64,000 bases of DNA from Desmodesmus armatus. Its lineage: Eukaryota; Chlorophyta; Chlorophyceae; Sphaeropleales; Scenedesmaceae. The position numbers and the translations under genes were made by a program. The notes below the pieces were generated by a model. The model did no database searches, had not been told where the DNA came from, and was given only the letters and a program-made list of their open reading frames with translations. Shown one piece after another: positions 3,501-52,189 of this stretch. How positions within the stretch are numbered: position 1 is the stretch's first letter; each line of letters starts with the position of its first letter. The DNA lies in contig VIIQ02000054.1 of the NCBI GenBank assembly GCA_007449985.2, positions 248,001 through 312,000 on the forward strand, in the 5' to 3' direction.

Positions 3501-4910
3501 ACTTCGATATCTGCTGGCTGCTTAGCGACAGGCAACCTGCCAATGGCAACTCACATGCGCCGACAGGTCAGGGCTTGAATCTTCACTGTGCTTCGTCACG
3601 GAATCAACTCACACTGGCTGTGTGCATGTGTGTCATGTGACTGCAGGTTAAGCCGCATGTGGACCACACCTGGGTGCGGCTGGGCAGTGCTGATTCAGCA
3701 GTGGATGAAGCTCTGCTGGCTGCAGTGCAGGCAGACCCTGACTACACAGCAGGCAAGGCACGTGTGCTGATCTTCACACGCAACACAGCAAACGCTGACC
3801 GGGTGAGTCCCAGGGTGGGTCGGTGCCACACTGAGCTTCGCTGCCAGCCTGGCCATCGTGATGACAGGTCACCCACATCAATCGGGGACCAGTGAAGCAA
3901 CCAGCGAAGCCTCTGGGCTCACTGTCAAGGTCATGCACAGCAAAATTGGGAAAAGATGTACTGCAGCGCTAGCGCAATGATTGACAGCAGCGCTAGCGCA
4001 TTTGATTCAAAGCAGCGCGAGCGTGCTGCCATTTGCTGTAAGCAGGCGCATGCAGCAAACAGGAACCTGTCCCCTGCGTCTGTTAGCTGACGCTCCAATG
4101 TTTGGGTGCTGTGTCTGTCCGCCGTGTTGACGCACAGGTGTCTGCCTTCCTCAATGAAAACAGCGTCCCCAACCGTGTGTACCATAAGAACCTCCCGTCC
4201 AAGGAGCAAGCAGCAGCACTAGAGGCCATGGCCCACCCGGCGCCTGAAGACAACCTGGTGATGGTCAGCACAGATGCAGCAGCACGGGGCATAGACCTGC
4301 CCCAGGTCACCCACGTCATCCAGGCAGACTTTGTGGCAAATGCTATAGAGTTCCTGCACAGGGTGGGGCGTACTGCCAGGGCTGGTAGATCTGGCAAGGT
4401 GACATCGCTGTACACACCTGCAGGTGAGGACATGTACCTTCAGACTTGAAGTTAGTGGGGTGCATTGGAGAGGGGCAGCCTACGGCAGTGTTGCGCCTTG
4501 TCTTGCTTGGCGGCCTCTTGTACGCACAGTGGACCTGCGTAGCAGAGTTGTTGCCGTGTGATCTTCCTGCATCAACAAAGTGCCGGCAATGCATACACGC
4601 CCACTCAGCTCACCCTTTCTTCACAAAAGTGGGTGCACCAATACAGCTCTTCCGCACCTCCAAGATTCTTGCAGATGCTGCAGTTCTGGAAGCGCATGCA
4701 ACATAGTTTTCCCATTCTCACCGCGCACTGACGCGTGTGTTTGTCTGTTGCTCTCTCGCACCTGCAGATGCCAACCTGGCGGAGGCTGTGCGGCAGTATG
4801 TGGAGGCAGGGCAGCCAGTGGCAGACTGCTTCAGCAGAAACCGGTCCTTCAGCCGCAAAGTCAAGCGCTACGGCAAGTTTGTGCCACGCGGACAGCAGGG
4901 CAAACAGTAG
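520..4910 (+). CDS. RH22: DEAD-box ATP-dependent RNA helicase, RH22-like (8 exons)
   Basis: Exons 520-870, 1168-1373, 1813-1991, 2218-2372, 2784-3281, 3647-3802, 4138-4423 and 4768-4910 join without phase conflict into 657 residues ending TAG. Motifs in order: Q motif (about 92-117), AETGSGKT (134-141), TTPG (243-246), DEAD in VVDEADLLW (278-281), AAT replacing SAT (431-433), VLIFTRN motif IV, STDAAARGID (559-568) and HRVGRTARAGR (589-599). Motif Ia reads LCPNTALCQQ instead of PTRELAxQ. This deviation, with VAATMP and ALWVSGD, resembles plant RH22, a chloroplast helicase acting in 50S ribosome assembly. The first 60 residues are Ala/Arg/Ser-rich and acid-poor, as in a plastid transit peptide. 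A poorly conserved acidic Ser/Glu insert of about 130 residues separates DEAD from AAT. The start is the first Met of the exon; an upstream exon is possible. Helicase call is firm, RH22 orthology moderate. Confidence 0.85.
3963..4024. repeat. Short tandem repeat with GCGCTAGCGC palindromes in helicase intron 6
   Basis: Three units of about 24 bases begin GCAGCGCTAGCGC, GCAGCGCTAGCGC and GCAGCGCGAGCG at 3963, 3987 and 4012. The first two contain the perfect palindrome GCGCTAGCGC. Confidence 0.7.
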
Positions 4911-5139
4911 CAGCTGCTGCATGTTGGCTATGTGCACAGTGCATGGGGTTGCTTGTGGAGTCTCCACAACCTGGTTGCTTTACCCAGGGTACCAAGCGAC
5001 ACCTGTTGCAGGTGGTACACATGTTGTTACACATGCCCTATGTTGAGATCATCAGATGCTTGTGATGTGGTGAGCACTGTGCTTAGGCTGGTGGCCACCC
5101 CGACCAAATTCAAAAAGTCACTGCCAGCTTTTACATGGT

Positions 5140-5560
5140 TTCTGTTACACAAAGGACCCTGATCACCCACACATGCTGCAAGCCCCACCGGGACTATCAA
5201 AAGACTGCCAGTGGACAAAGGCTACCTACCCTGTCTCAGGGTTCTTGCTTCAGCTCAAGGACACTGTACGGGACAAATCCTCTCGAACCTTATGAATGAG
5301 CCTCATTGGCAGACAGTGTGCCTGTCACAGCATCATATACTGGCAGCACAGTGTGCCCATCACAGCATCATATCTACTGGCAAACGCTGTGCCATCAGAT
5401 GCCATCTGACCTTGCAAGTTGCGCACTTGACAGTGTGCACTGCAAGGCTTGCAGCACACACACGGTCAGGACTGAATGCACCACAGCAGCACTGTGAATG
5501 CAGTTTGAACAAAAGATAATGGTACAGTGTAACACGCCAACTTGACAAACAAAGCCGTTG
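5140..5560. repeat. Dispersed repeat, copy A
   Basis: This stretch aligns by eye with 12825-13200 over most of its length. Shared landmarks include GCTGCAAGCCCC, GGACAAAGGCTA, TTCTTGCTTCAGCTCAA, GCAAGT(T/C)GCGCA, TTGCAGCACACAC and CAGCAGCACTGTG(A/G)ATGCA. It has no long frame and lies directly downstream of the helicase stop, where it may provide the 3' UTR; a TGTAA, the chlorophyte-type polyadenylation signal, is at 5528-5532. No terminal repeats or target duplication were recognised. Confidence 0.65.
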
Positions 5561-14936: not shown

Positions 14937-16313
14937 CTACGGGGGACCGGGGCCTCCAACTGACCTAGACCAGGGCACCTGGTCTAAGCCACCAGCAGTG
15001 CGCTCAGGGAGCTGCACTGGCTGAGCTGCTGCTGCTGCTGCTGAGAAGGGAAGACCGACTCGGCTGCGAACCTGCGGAGCTGCAGATGCGTAGCCACCAA
15101 ACACAAATGCGCCAGAAAAACCACCTGATGCAAGGGCCAAACAAGAAACAGACGGGGAGGGGACAAGTGCGAAGTCCCCAGAACCACCCACAGGAGCAAC
15201 CACCAACGGCAACACACTGCTGCGTGTGTCGTCAAAGGCATCATCCTGCCAGCCACCGTTGCCGCTGGGGGCAAGGCTGACCGGGCTGTTGCTGCCAGAA
15301 GGGAAAGCTGTGACAGGGCTGCTGTTGCCACTGCTGCTGGAGAAGGCAGCAGCAGAGACGGGGCTGCTGCAGCCGCTGCTGGCACTAGGGGCAGCAAGAG
15401 GCGGGTACCCAGGGGGTGTGCCAGCCTCCTGACTGTCAAACTGCTGCGGGGCATCTAGCTGCTGTTGCTGGGCAGCCCACTGCCGCCACAGCTGCAGCTC
15501 AGCAGCCATGCTGTCATGCTGCTGCACCACCTGCCGCAGCTCGGCTTGGCTGCTGCAAGCTTTGCCGTACCAGTGCTGCACCTCTGCAGTCAACTGGTTG
15601 TGCATGGAAGCTGCCTCATGCAACTGGTGTTGAGACAACTGCAGGTCCTGCTGTAGCTGACGGACCTGTTGCTGCAAGGGCTGGACAGACTGCTGGGTAG
15701 CCTCTAGCTGGTCCTGTAAGCGACACTGCTGCTGTTGAGACTGCTGTTGGGTCTGCTCCAGCTGCGACTGTACCTGGATGACCTGGGTTTGCAGCTGAAT
15801 AACCTGGAACTGGAGCTGGATACACTGGTCCTGCTGCTCTTGAAGCTGCAAGCGCTCCCGCTGGTTGTACTGTAACTGCTGCTGTTGGGCCTGCTGCTCC
15901 GCGCATTGAAGCTGCTGCTGGGAACACTGTAGCTGCTGCTCCAGCTGTTCAGACCGACTGTTGGAGTGCTCAAGCTGCTGCTGCAGCTTGGTGACCTCCT
16001 GCTGGAGTTGCTGCTCCTGTCCAAGTGACTGCTGCTGAAGCCGGTCCTGCAACAGCTTGGACAGCTCATACCACTGGTGGGCCTCTGCGGACAGCTGATC
16101 CTGCTGTGACTCTGCCTGCTGCAGTAGCTGCTCCAGCTGCCGGGCCCGCTGCTCAGAAAGCTCCAGCTGCCGCTGCAGCTGACTGGCCTGTTCCTGTGCT
16201 GCAGCACGCTCTGCCTCAGCATGCTGCAACTGCTGTGACTGGCTGCCTTGCGTGAGAAACTGCTCATCCACCTCCACGAAACGACCGAATCCGTAAGGCA
16301 GAATTCGGACCAT
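14937..16313 (-). CDS. Gln-rich coiled-coil protein, single exon, unknown function
   Basis: An uninterrupted 458-codon frame starts MVRILPYGFGRFVEVDEQFL. Residues of about 25-290 are a near-continuous heptad-like Gln/Leu/Glu coiled coil (LQQQ, QLEQ and QLQ units). A Ser/Pro/Gly-rich segment of about 300-390 follows, with repeated SSP, NSPV and SGS motifs, and the C terminus is Ala/Pro-rich, ending TAG. No introns are evident, unlike most neighbours. No enzyme domain was recognised. The regular CAG/CTG tract means chance openness must be considered, but the Ser/Pro half and the distinctive N terminus are not simple repeats. A gag-like ORF of a retroelement is one alternative, given the asymmetric tract and tandem repeat downstream. 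Confidence 0.5.
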   Translation of the reverse strand: MVRILPYGFGRFVEVDEQFLTQGSQSQQLQHAEAERAAAQEQASQLQRQLELSEQRARQLEQLLQQAESQQDQLSAEAHQWYELSKLLQDRLQQQSLGQEQQLQQEVTKLQQQLEHSNSRSEQLEQQLQCSQQQLQCAEQQAQQQQLQYNQRERLQLQEQQDQCIQLQFQVIQLQTQVIQVQSQLEQTQQQSQQQQCRLQDQLEATQQSVQPLQQQVRQLQQDLQLSQHQLHEAASMHNQLTAEVQHWYGKACSSQAELRQVVQQHDSMAAELQLWRQWAAQQQQLDAPQQFDSQEAGTPPGYPPLAAPSASSGCSSPVSAAAFSSSSGNSSPVTAFPSGSNSPVSLAPSGNGGWQDDAFDDTRSSVLPLVVAPVGGSGDFALVPSPSVSCLALASGGFSGAFVFGGYASAAPQVRSRVGLPFSAAAAAAQPVQLPERTAGGLDQVPWSRSVGGPGPP

Positions 16314-17253: not shown

Positions 17254-17722
17254 CTACAGGCGCTTGCTGCCGCCCCTGCCGCCGCCGGGCAGCATGCGCC
17301 TTGCGCCCAGCTCTGTATCGGCCTGCTGCTGCTGGCTGGTAAGTGTAGTGGTTGTCAGCAGGTGCTTGCTGCCACCCCTGCCACCGCCAGGCAGCATGCG
17401 CCTTACACCCAGCTCTGTATCGGCCTGCTGCTGCTGGCTGGTGAGTGTAGTGGTTGTCAGCAGGTGCTTGCTGCCACCCCTGCCACCGCCGGGCAGCATG
17501 CGCCTTGCACCCAGCTCTGTATCGGCCTGCTGCTGCTGGCTGGTGAGTGTAGTGGTTGTCAGCAGGTGCTTGCTGCCACCCCTGCCACCGCCAGGCAGCA
17601 TGCGCCTTGCACCCAGCTCTGTATCGGCCTGCTGCTGCTGGCTGGTAACTGTAGTGGTTGTCAACAGGTGCTTGCTGCCGCCCCTGCCACCGCCAGGCAG
17701 CAAGCGCATGGGGCCTCTCTCC
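17254..17722. repeat. 102-base coding tandem repeat of peptide precursor 1
   Basis: Four and a half units of 102 bases differ at very few positions, suggesting recent unit duplication or gene conversion. The opposite strand is also open throughout because of the repeat composition. Confidence 0.9.
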
Positions 17723-17877
17723 TGCTGTACTGAGCTGCCTTGGACTGCTGCCACCAGGTAGTCCCGCCTAATCCCACCAGCCAAGTGCTTGCTTGAGCCC
17801 AGGTCGCTGGCAGTTGCACCAACAGCTGCCGAGTGCAACAGGCACACACACAGAATTAGGACCAACGACTTGGCCAT
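17254..17877 (-). CDS. Secreted multi-copy peptide precursor, copy 1
   Basis: The frame encodes about 207 residues from MAKSLVLILCVCLL, a clear signal peptide probably cleaved after about residue 23. This Met is preferred to one three codons upstream because the paralogue starts here. Next come DLGSSKHLAGG, a dibasic RR, and then five copies of a core LPGGGRGGSK(H/R)L. Four are preceded by ARRM or VRRM; the first is preceded by GPMRL. The 19-residue spacers (TTTT(L/V)TSQQQQADTELG(A/V)) are nearly identical, giving a 34-residue, 102-base unit, and the last core ends the protein. Signal peptide, dibasic sites and multiple identical cores are the layout of peptide-hormone or pheromone precursors. 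The GGGR within each core could also be an amidation site. No known family was recognised. Confidence 0.75.
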   Translation of the reverse strand: MAKSLVLILCVCLLHSAAVGATASDLGSSKHLAGGIRRDYLVAAVQGSSVQQERGPMRLLPGGGRGGSKHLLTTTTVTSQQQQADTELGARRMLPGGGRGGSKHLLTTTTLTSQQQQADTELGARRMLPGGGRGGSKHLLTTTTLTSQQQQADTELGVRRMLPGGGRGGSKHLLTTTTLTSQQQQADTELGARRMLPGGGRGGSKRL

Positions 17878-18047: not shown

Positions 18048-18091
18048 GGCTCGTTTCGAGTGTGATCAAGGAATGACGCCCGCACACCGGG

Positions 18092-18190
18092 TGACCGGCC
18101 GGTCAGGATGGAAGTTGCGGAACCTGCGGCCTGCTGCGCATGGAGGGCGGTGCCTGGAAGGTCGGTCCCTCACTCGGTGGTGACCGGTCG
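18092..18190. promoter_or_regulatory. Palindromic promoter motifs TGACCGGCCGGTCA and TGACCGGTC
   Basis: The 14-base perfect palindrome TGACCGGCCGGTCA (18092-18105) and TGACCGGTC (18181-18189) flank GGAAGGTC (18156-18163). GGGACCGGTGACTGACC follows near 18296. All are kept in the second copy while intervening bases vary, as expected for binding sites of a dimeric regulator. Confidence 0.5.
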
Positions 18191-18390
18191 GTGGCAGGGC
18201 TGCAGGTTGTACGCCGAAACAAGTCTCTTTATCGAAAAGCAGGAAAGACAAGAACTAATAAGCACACGGGAAGGCTGTTTCAAGGACCTTTGGTGGGACC
18301 GGTGACTGACCATCCAGCGCTATGCGTGGTGATCTGGACAGCACATCCTCTTTGGAAACAGGCATTGCATACCATGATTATTTCTGAAAA

Positions 18391-24197: not shown

Positions 24198-24276
<79 letters not shown>

Positions 24277-50957: not shown

Positions 50958-51701
50958 CTACAAGTGCTTGCTGCCGCCCCTGCCACCGCCAGGCAGCATG
51001 CGCCGTGCACCCAGCTCTGTGTAGGCCTGCTGCTGCTGGCTGGTAACTGTAGTGGTTGCCAGCAGGTGCTTGCTGCCACCCCTGCCACCGCCAGGCAGCA
51101 TGCGCCTTGCACCCAGCTCTGTATCGGCCTGCTGCTGCTGGCTGGTTAGTGTGGTGGTTGTCAGCAGGTGCTTGCTGCCGCCCCTGCCACCGCCAGGCAG
51201 CGTGCGCCTTGCACCCAGCTCTGTATCGGCCTGCTGCTGCTGGCTGGTAACTGTAGTGGTTGTCAGCAGGTGCTTGCTGCCACCCCTGCCACCGCCAGGC
51301 AGCATGCGCCTTGCACCCAGCTCTGTATCGGCCTGCTGCTGCTGGCTGGTGAGTGTAGTGGTTGTCAGCAAATGCTTGCTGCCACCCCTGCCACCGCCAG
51401 GCAGCATGCGCCTTGCACCCAGCTCTTGTTCAGTGTCCTGGCCCTCCTGCTGCTGCATGGCCTCACTTTGTGCCAGCTGTGATGCCAAAAGGTGCTTGCT
51501 GCCACCCCTGCCACCGCCAGGCAGCAAGCGCATGGGGCCTCTCTCCTGCTGTGCTGAGCTGCCTTGGACTGCCGCCACCAGATACTCTCGCTTAATCCCA
51601 CCAGCTAGGTGCTTGCTTGAGCCCAGGTCACTGGCTGTTGCACCAATGGCTGCCGAGGCCAACAGGCACACACACAGAACTAGGACCAGGGACTTGGCCA
51701 T
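50958..51701 (-). CDS. Secreted multi-copy peptide precursor, copy 2
   Basis: A 247-residue paralogue of the 17254 gene, starting MAKSLVLVLCVCLLASAA (signal peptide). DLGSSKHLAGG and a KR dibasic site follow. There are six cores LPGGGRGGSKHL: the first preceded by GPMRL, the others by ARRM or ARRT. The first spacer is divergent (ASQLAQSEAMQQQEG...), the others are the TTTT(L/V)TSQQQQADTELG type with small changes (ATTT, AYTE). The last core ends the protein. Cores and dibasic sites are more constant than the first spacer, suggesting selection on the core, although recent unit duplication blurs the contrast. Function is unknown; a secreted signalling or matrix peptide is the leading idea. Confidence 0.75.
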   Translation of the reverse strand: MAKSLVLVLCVCLLASAAIGATASDLGSSKHLAGGIKREYLVAAVQGSSAQQERGPMRLLPGGGRGGSKHLLASQLAQSEAMQQQEGQDTEQELGARRMLPGGGRGGSKHLLTTTTLTSQQQQADTELGARRMLPGGGRGGSKHLLTTTTVTSQQQQADTELGARRTLPGGGRGGSKHLLTTTTLTSQQQQADTELGARRMLPGGGRGGSKHLLATTTVTSQQQQAYTELGARRMLPGGGRGGSKHL

Positions 51702-51870: not shown

Positions 51871-51914
51871 GGCTATTTTCTAGTGTGATCAAGGAATGAC
51901 GCCCGCACACCGGG

Positions 51915-52012
51915 TGACCGGCCGGTCAGGATGGAAGTTGCGGAATCTGAGCCTGCTGCGCATGGAGGGCGGTGCCTGGAAGGTCGGTCCCTCACTCGGT
52001 GGTGACCGGTCG
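51915..52012. promoter_or_regulatory. Palindromic promoter motifs, copy 2
   Basis: TGACCGGCCGGTCA (51915-51928), GGAAGGTC (51978-51985) and TGACCGGTC (52003-52011) keep the order and spacing of copy 1. GGGACCGGTGACCGACC follows near 52118. Confidence 0.5.
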
Positions 52013-52189
52013 GTGGCAGGCCTGCAGGCTGTACGTTGCATCACGCTTTTCCCGTGACAGCTAATGAAATAGGTGATGCTAAGCACACAGGGAGGCTGTT
52101 TCGAGGACCTTGGGTGGGACCGGTGACCGACCATCCAGCGCTATGCGTGGTCGTATGGAGGGCCCGTAACAACACATCCTCTTTCTAAC

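Follow-up and report, generated by a model that had tools for sequence, protein, structure and literature searches.

Multi-Copy Peptide Precursors and Their Maturation: A Proposed Green-Algal Family

Animal neuropeptide precursors are multi-copy chains with Gly-Lys-Arg amidation sites, and GOLVEN/CLEL precursors of plants carry a single copy of a C-terminal peptide. Among green algae, Chlamydomonas and Volvox apart, peptide signals are to our knowledge known in few cases. The KEX2-processed repeat proteins (KEPs) of fungi, which include the alpha-type pheromone precursors of ascomycetes, combine a signal peptide with at least three near-identical units and basic sites between them, as described in PMC6339444. 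In plants, SBT6.1 takes part in CLEL6 maturation (PMC7162652), and its site rule is given as RXXL and RXLX (PMC4983112). PC-like, S1P-like, and CPB-like enzymes have been reported in Chlamydomonas (PMC6313938), as has similarity to plant-type SSPs (PMC13091385), the accessible portion of the latter article naming no LPGGGRG-type core.

Here, a 207-codon gene of the green alga Desmodesmus armatus, termed copy A, is compared with these systems, together with its paralogue copy B from the same window, i.e., the whole stretch of 64,000 nucleotides that was analysed. With a probability of roughly 0.6, the products of A and B are considered to be preproproteins that belong to a new family of multi-copy secreted peptides in algae, which would be cut by subtilisin-type proteases and whose released cores would act as signals.

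A Repeat-Bearing Gene and Its Paralogues

Copy A occupies positions 17254..17877 of the minus strand and consists of 207 codons followed by TAG, with no need for an intron. Its signal-peptide-like N-terminus, MAKSLVLILCVCLLHSAAVGA (17815..17877, minus strand; heuristic cut site), reaches a hydropathy maximum of 3.69 at residues 5-14, versus 1.45 elsewhere, and VGA|TAS satisfies the -3,-1 rule, also applied as a heuristic. Five cores of the pattern LPGGGRGGSK[HR]L follow at residues 60-71, 94-105, 128-139, 162-173, and 196-207 of the translation, four of them identical (LPGGGRGGSKHL) and the fifth reading LPGGGRGGSKRL. On the minus strand, core 1 (17665..17700) is preceded by PMRL, cores 2 (17563..17598) and 3 (17461..17496) by ARRM, and core 4 (17359..17394) by VRRM, and core 5 (17257..17292) is C-terminal and reaches the stop codon. 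The first-pass annotation, which had described five near-identical cores behind a signal peptide in one frame and a protein ending exactly on a core, is confirmed in these respects. Its placement of most cores directly behind RR is correct for four of the five, except that a Met intervenes (RRM-LPGGG) and that core 1 follows PMRL; likewise, its spacing of 19 residues corresponds to the distance from a core end to the next RR, the period being 34 residues (12 of core plus 22).

Copy B (50958..51701, minus strand) comprises 247 codons plus a stop, with six cores and an SKHL end. Its N-terminus (51639..51701, minus strand) is also signal-peptide-like by heuristic. Core 1 (51489..51524) is again preceded by PMRL, cores 2 (51369..51404), 3 (51267..51302), and 5 (51063..51098) by ARRM, and core 4 (51165..51200) by ARRT, and core 6 (50961..50996) is C-terminal, all on the minus strand. 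A third, inverted copy, C, lies about 67 kb from A, outside the window (L008 4634-5180; G000:C50:198133-198677), with a frame break within its third core that reflects either a pseudogene or an assembly error. All three copies are on one contig of a genome of 115.8 Mb in 831 contigs, and a DNA pattern for MLPGGGRGG matched 10 times in these 115.8 Mb, only in A, B, and C, the reversed-pattern control giving 0 matches. One D1-protease exon of this genome is identical in 74 of 91 columns to the chain of PDB 1fc7, which comes from Scenedesmus obliquus; this agrees with a sphaeroplealean source and makes Chlamydomonas less likely.

The cores of A and B are embedded in 102-bp tandem repeat arrays (17257..17707 and 50964..51426, respectively, both on the minus strand); that of A contains 4.4 copies with 95% matches, and core copy number would therefore be cheap to change. 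Since the period is divisible by 3, an open frame across the array of A is little proof of a gene, and other reading frames are likewise open there, as would be expected if a spurious frame merely overlay a minisatellite. However, this explanation is most improbable in view of the surplus of silent changes in the N-terminus, which lies outside the repeats, and of the same core in diverged relatives within other contexts. Over 71 N-terminal codons, dS and dN are 0.249 and 0.046 between A and B, 0.349 and 0.056 between A and C, and 0.303 and 0.060 between B and C, values that gene conversion among the copies would blur. In the coding frame, dN/dS of these pairs is 0.16-0.20, the lowest of all six frames, and in the other five it ranges from 0.33 (A-B, in one antisense frame) to about 5, exceeding 1 in 9 of 15 comparisons. 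Judged by its sequence, copy A is a real gene, because the paralogues show this excess of silent changes in frame and the diverged relatives described below keep the core.

Beside copy A, a Gln/Leu-rich, coiled-coil-like frame of 458 codons is found at window positions 14937-16313 of the minus strand, and a perfect (GA)35 repeat is present at 24202-24271.

An Upstream Block Common to the Three Copies

The similarity among A, B, and C sets in about 450 bp ahead of the ATG and persists through the coding region, beyond which only short pieces are alike. Within it, a block is placed 193-321 bases before the ATG of A (18070..18198, minus strand), with similar blocks at 51893..52020 (minus strand) for B and at about 4314-4433 of L008 for C. 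Over 120 bases of this block, identity among the three copies is 97-98% (98% for A-B), and a query with these 120 bases matched at A, B, and C only in the 115.8-Mb genome. When the alignment is read in 50-column windows, the four that begin between columns -333 and -258 show a three-way identity of 0.90-0.98. The block includes two invariant runs, of 43 and 44 bases, and a palindromic GACCGGCCGGTC; between it and the ATG, identity drops to 0.42-0.74. Within the coding part, by contrast, all three copies agree at 53 of 71 third codon positions and at 25 of 34 fourfold sites. A shorter second block near -458 has a three-way identity of up to 0.90. A TATA-like box occurs near -171 in A and B, and none was detected in C by the pattern used. 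The upstream block is read as a putative regulatory element common to A, B, and C, the alternative being that local gene conversion has kept it alike.

Diverged Relatives in the Genome and in Protein Databases

Four further loci of the genome carry diverged relatives of A and B. Locus D (contig C563, L009 3899-5368) is best interpreted as three exons separated by GT-AG introns in phase 0, with limits read from the sequence, and its joined frame begins MMSSFQTLVLVCLASVACAHA. It contains six cores of two alternating kinds, three of MLPGGTSKNGRG-RHLL and three of MMPGGGRG, and the chain terminates in RRMMPGGGRG followed by the stop. Locus E, arranged head to head with D at a distance of about 950 bp, is a single frame of 139 residues; its start is of signal type and its cores are RMLPGGGRSQLI and RVLPGGGRGHLV. 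The remaining two loci are the C8 arrays (L032 6160-7290, plus strand; L033 about 4200-5240, minus strand), each with three one-core units of the kind RRFLPGGGRGGS...GRHLL, some of them degenerate. As read from the sequence, like all C8 unit limits, the L032 units appear to be exons that lie between an AG and a GT and are in phase 1 at either end. Between LPGGGRGGS and the GRHLL-type element, the C8 exons have an insert of 8-23 residues, which counts against a core cut closely on both sides. On this reading, cores would have been multiplied in two ways, as 102-bp tandem units within one exon in A and B and as phase 1-1 exon cassettes in C8. Behind each of the two C8 arrays lies a similar Asn/Thr-rich frame; that of the L033 array gave no Pfam match.

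A genome scan for R-x-L-P-G-G-G-R gave 22 matches, 19 in family loci and 3 outside, with 9 in the reversed control. The outside matches on C43 and C601 were read as chance, that on C601 being inside a frame that looks glucosidase-like, and no LPGGGR frame was found at the match on C47. R-M-L-P-G-G matched 33 times, versus 5 in the reversed control, with 15 matches in family loci; among the 18 outside them, the 15 that were read had no GRG-type core. The database relative P0002 matched 14 times in the genome, including weakly on C613, C507, C334, and C708 (E 0.06-0.4), and another weak match, on C229, was without a core at its position.

Among about 5.8 billion proteins, 3, 8, and 17 relatives were found at E <=0.001, 0.01, and 0.1, respectively, each search having scored the 8000 candidates with the most words in common. 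A and B have P0002 as a relative, D has P0004 and P0005, and E has P0011-P0014. For P0005 as for P0014, the longest contig is given as 17944 bases, and D and E may thus be neighbours there too. P0003, P0006, and P0010 have in common a C-terminal QC/KC-[ST]WWE...W end after their cores, which might form a small domain, either folded or acting as a carrier. Precursor-like frames are also seen in P0016-P0018; the compact P0017 has 98 residues, a start of signal type, and two cores, with KR and RR behind them. P0007-P0009 and P0015 are short or diverged. By the heuristic, a hydrophobic signal-type stretch is present in 11 of the 13 sequences tested (A, B, D, E, and 9 of the 17 database relatives), namely A, B, D, E, P0002, P0011, P0012, P0014, P0016, P0017, and P0018, where the start points of P0002, P0012, P0016, and P0018 were picked by hand inside longer frames and that of P0016 is not a Met. 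The same heuristic gave no such stretch in P0006 and P0010, which are probably exon fragments. The signal peptide expected of a neuropeptide-type prohormone (PMC6313938) is, by this measure, found in A, B, and 9 of the 11 relatives tested.

No Pfam family exceeded its cut-off with 15 query sequences (E up to 1 or 0.1), several of which were fragments and two of which were overlapping pieces of D; the nearest model, PF10618, scored 21.2 bits with exon 3 of D, against a cut-off of 23. In NCBIfam, the phage Icd-like model NF033153 gave whole-protein scores of 29.1 bits for A, 34.4 for B, and 31.1 for P0002 (cut-off 25), but no single stretch passes, the best covering 14-23 residues of the 48-position model, and the score is read as an artefact of summed repeats. 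NCBIfam otherwise yielded low matches, far below the cut-offs, and a search of PDB sequences with A gave two matches, the best (chain C2HR4_8r) at E 0.032. The DNA pattern was absent from viral contigs and prokaryote genome contigs, which is little surprise given that these collections are viral and prokaryote. In the literature, the string LPGGGRG had 0 occurrences in the text of 5.39 million open-access papers, a scope distinct from subscription papers and supplementary files, and topic searches named no such family among the best matches listed. The statement of the first-pass annotation that no family with this core was known is borne out by these searches and, as far as they show, the multi-copy layout is a known one, and the family, its core, and its flank rule are new.

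Core Conservation and Flanking Sites

The core of the family can be written as R-x-L-P-G-G-G-[RK]-[GS], frequently followed by [KR][HR]LL. In all 11 pairs compared, which are not independent of one another, the core is conserved above the non-core sequence: for A and P0002 the values are 0.91 in the core and 0.66 in the rest, and for E and P0011, P0012, or P0014 they are 1.00 versus 0.66-0.71. The relatives were retrieved by words containing the core, which biases the comparison toward seeing it conserved. Variable cores in homologues had been named at the outset as the mark of a structural wall protein; the homologues hold the core and it is the spacers that change.

A hand list of 49 distinct cores was compiled without identical repeats, copy C, and the N-truncated starting cores of P0003, P0005, P0007, and P0008, with four cores missed by the pattern added from the sequences and with the inserts of the C8 exons shortened. 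In this list, R stands before x-L-P in 47 cores (strictly in 46, because in the F3 core R replaces x), L and P are each present in 46, and x is Met in 32. On the C side, [KR][KRH][LM] follows GRG in 34 of 49 cores, with Gly immediately ahead of the site in 24 of the 34. A dibasic site, counted strictly as an adjacent pair, where PMC6313938 also admits (R/K)Xn(R/K) with n = 0 or 2, is located directly before 27 of 49 cores and directly after 14 of 47. The paired basic sites of neuropeptide-type prohormones (PMC6313938), and with them the dibasic processing first proposed for this locus, are accordingly found at only part of the cores. In copy A, dibasics stand before cores 2-5 only, apart from the KR inside the last core. 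The C-side site of A and B is KH, not a dibasic, with KR solely in the last core of A, a point that counts against the preferred reading.

RXLX and RXXL sites, such as mark site-1-protease substrates, are more widespread in the sequences: R-x-L-x is found on the N side of 45 of 49 cores and, with K and M allowed, [RK]x[LM] or [RK]xxL on the C side of 43 of 47. This flank rule seems to be favoured over the dibasic one, though mildly, because its C-side form is looser and easier to satisfy. On the other hand, proline is a poor P1' residue after RRML, which speaks against a cut there. The presence of such sites on both flanks would also suit a processing linker, in which cuts of site-1-protease type at RRML and [KR]HLL release the Thr/Gln spacers as the products. 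However, no spacer motif was seen to be kept across subfamilies, and the PGGGRG enclosed by the sites is more strongly conserved than a mere linker should require, making this explanation improbable.

The chain terminates on a core in 8 of the 21 proteins (A, B, D, E, and P0002-P0018), with K[HR]L in A, B, P0002, and P0016, GRG in D, P0004, and P0005, and GRGKH in P0009. These ends fall at differing places and the other 13 chains end elsewhere, so that a single mature C-terminus is not implied. A secreted matrix or wall protein that escapes processing would likewise be compatible with a conserved glycine-rich repeat; its PGGGRGG[SG][KR] repeats would be glycine-rich, basic modules for binding or assembly, joined by Thr/Gln spacers in the role of O-glycosylated linkers. 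The 102-bp tandem repeat with its variable copy number is in keeping with such a role, as are the TTTT stretches and Q-rich composition of the spacers of copy A, and A has no confident AlphaFold fold (mean pLDDT 48.8 from a 3-row alignment, which is uninformative). Nevertheless, two-core relatives of 98-151 residues (P0017, P0018, E) are unlike structural repeats, the basic and leucine flanks stay while the spacers vary, and stops coincide with core ends in the 8 chains above; a matrix protein is therefore held to be unlikely, though less so than a linker.

Candidate Processing Enzymes and Amidation

S8 subtilase domains gave 44 exon-level matches in the genome, and three subtilase frames that were read look subtilisin-like. 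The P domain of kexin/furin (P_proprotein) was not found in the genome search, although a gene split into exons may escape such a search. The genome does contain a PHM gene, with exons at G000:C90:139791-140522 that match PF03712 at E 7.8e-9, contain an HTH stretch and EMCNMYLM, and have PHM chains as their best PDB matches (best E 3.3e-12). These exons correspond to the hydroxylase half of the PAM expected in the genome of an organism with neuropeptide-type prohormones (PMC6313938).

A product sequence that ends in Gly, or runs into G-KR or G-RR, is found in D, P0003, P0004, P0005, P0008, and P0017, and not in A or B. The amidation of a glycine-extended core put forward in the first-pass annotation is consistent with this part of the family, where it appears possible, and with the PHM gene, but it does not agree with the SKRL and SKHL ends of A and B. 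A prohormone of the classical type, cleaved at dibasic sites, trimmed by a carboxypeptidase, and amidated to give MLPGGGR-amide-like peptides, could account for the RRM[LM]PGGGRG termini of P0004, P0005, and D, for G-KR and G-RR in P0017 and G-KR in P0003 and P0008, and for the PHM gene. The dibasic counts given above, the ends of A and B, and the P domain not being found speak against it; as a general account it is possible but doubtful, and it is counted as a sub-case of the subtilisin-type reading that applies to part of the family.

Proposed Function

The multi-copy, secreted-type, precursor-like architecture first noticed in copy A is supported by its five cores and, heuristically, by its signal-type start. 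In the preferred reading, the signal peptide would route the A or B chain to the secretory pathway, where one or more subtilisin-type proteases may cleave both sides of each core, at R-R-M-L before it and at [KR]-[HR]-L-L after it. Each precursor would then free several short, basic, glycine-rich peptides around LPGGGRG, which could serve as an extracellular signal. The mature peptide might begin as R|MLPGGGRG... or be L|PGGGRGGSKHL, with a C-terminal amide possible where the core ends in Gly. A more specific proposal is offered tentatively and with more doubt than confidence: a green-algal hormone or pheromone family built on x-LPGGG[RK]G, with tandem and exon-cassette cores, maturation at either flank by a rule of site-1-protease type instead of kexin/furin cleavage, partial amidation, and co-regulation of A, B, and C by a private 120-bp element.

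If the pieces are truly released, they would represent a new set of algal signalling peptides. The short, defined core and the multi-gene family mean that synthetic peptides (PGGGRGGSKHL, MLPGGGRGGSKHL, and MLPGGGR-amide) could be tested at once. Moreover, the family raises the question of whether multi-copy prohormones originated independently in the green lineage and of which protease matures them.

Comparison with Known Systems

No sequence common to the fungal KEPs and the A/B family is known to us. The two have in common the signal peptide (by heuristic in the alga), at least three near-identical units, five in A and six in B, and basic sites between them, most cores in A and B being preceded by RR; they differ in lineage and in that the fungal sites are consistently KR, whereas those of the algal family are R-x-L and [KR][HR]LL (PMC6339444). 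Cre03.g204500 of Chlamydomonas reinhardtii, the precursor of GATI-amide, is likewise a green algal protein, with an amidated product, a glycine-rich stretch near its end, and PAM present; compared by its description in PMC6919629, however, it is a 94-kDa protein with one described product, unlike the short, multi-copy A and B. The multi-copy layout of animal neuropeptide precursors recurs here, and some algal members have G-KR or a Gly end, but most algal cores are without a C-side dibasic and A and B end in SKRL and SKHL. With the GOLVEN/CLEL small secreted peptides of plants, which unlike it are single-copy, the algal family has in common RXXL/RXLX-type sites, which in plants are those of SBT6.1/S1P (PMC7162652 and PMC4983112).
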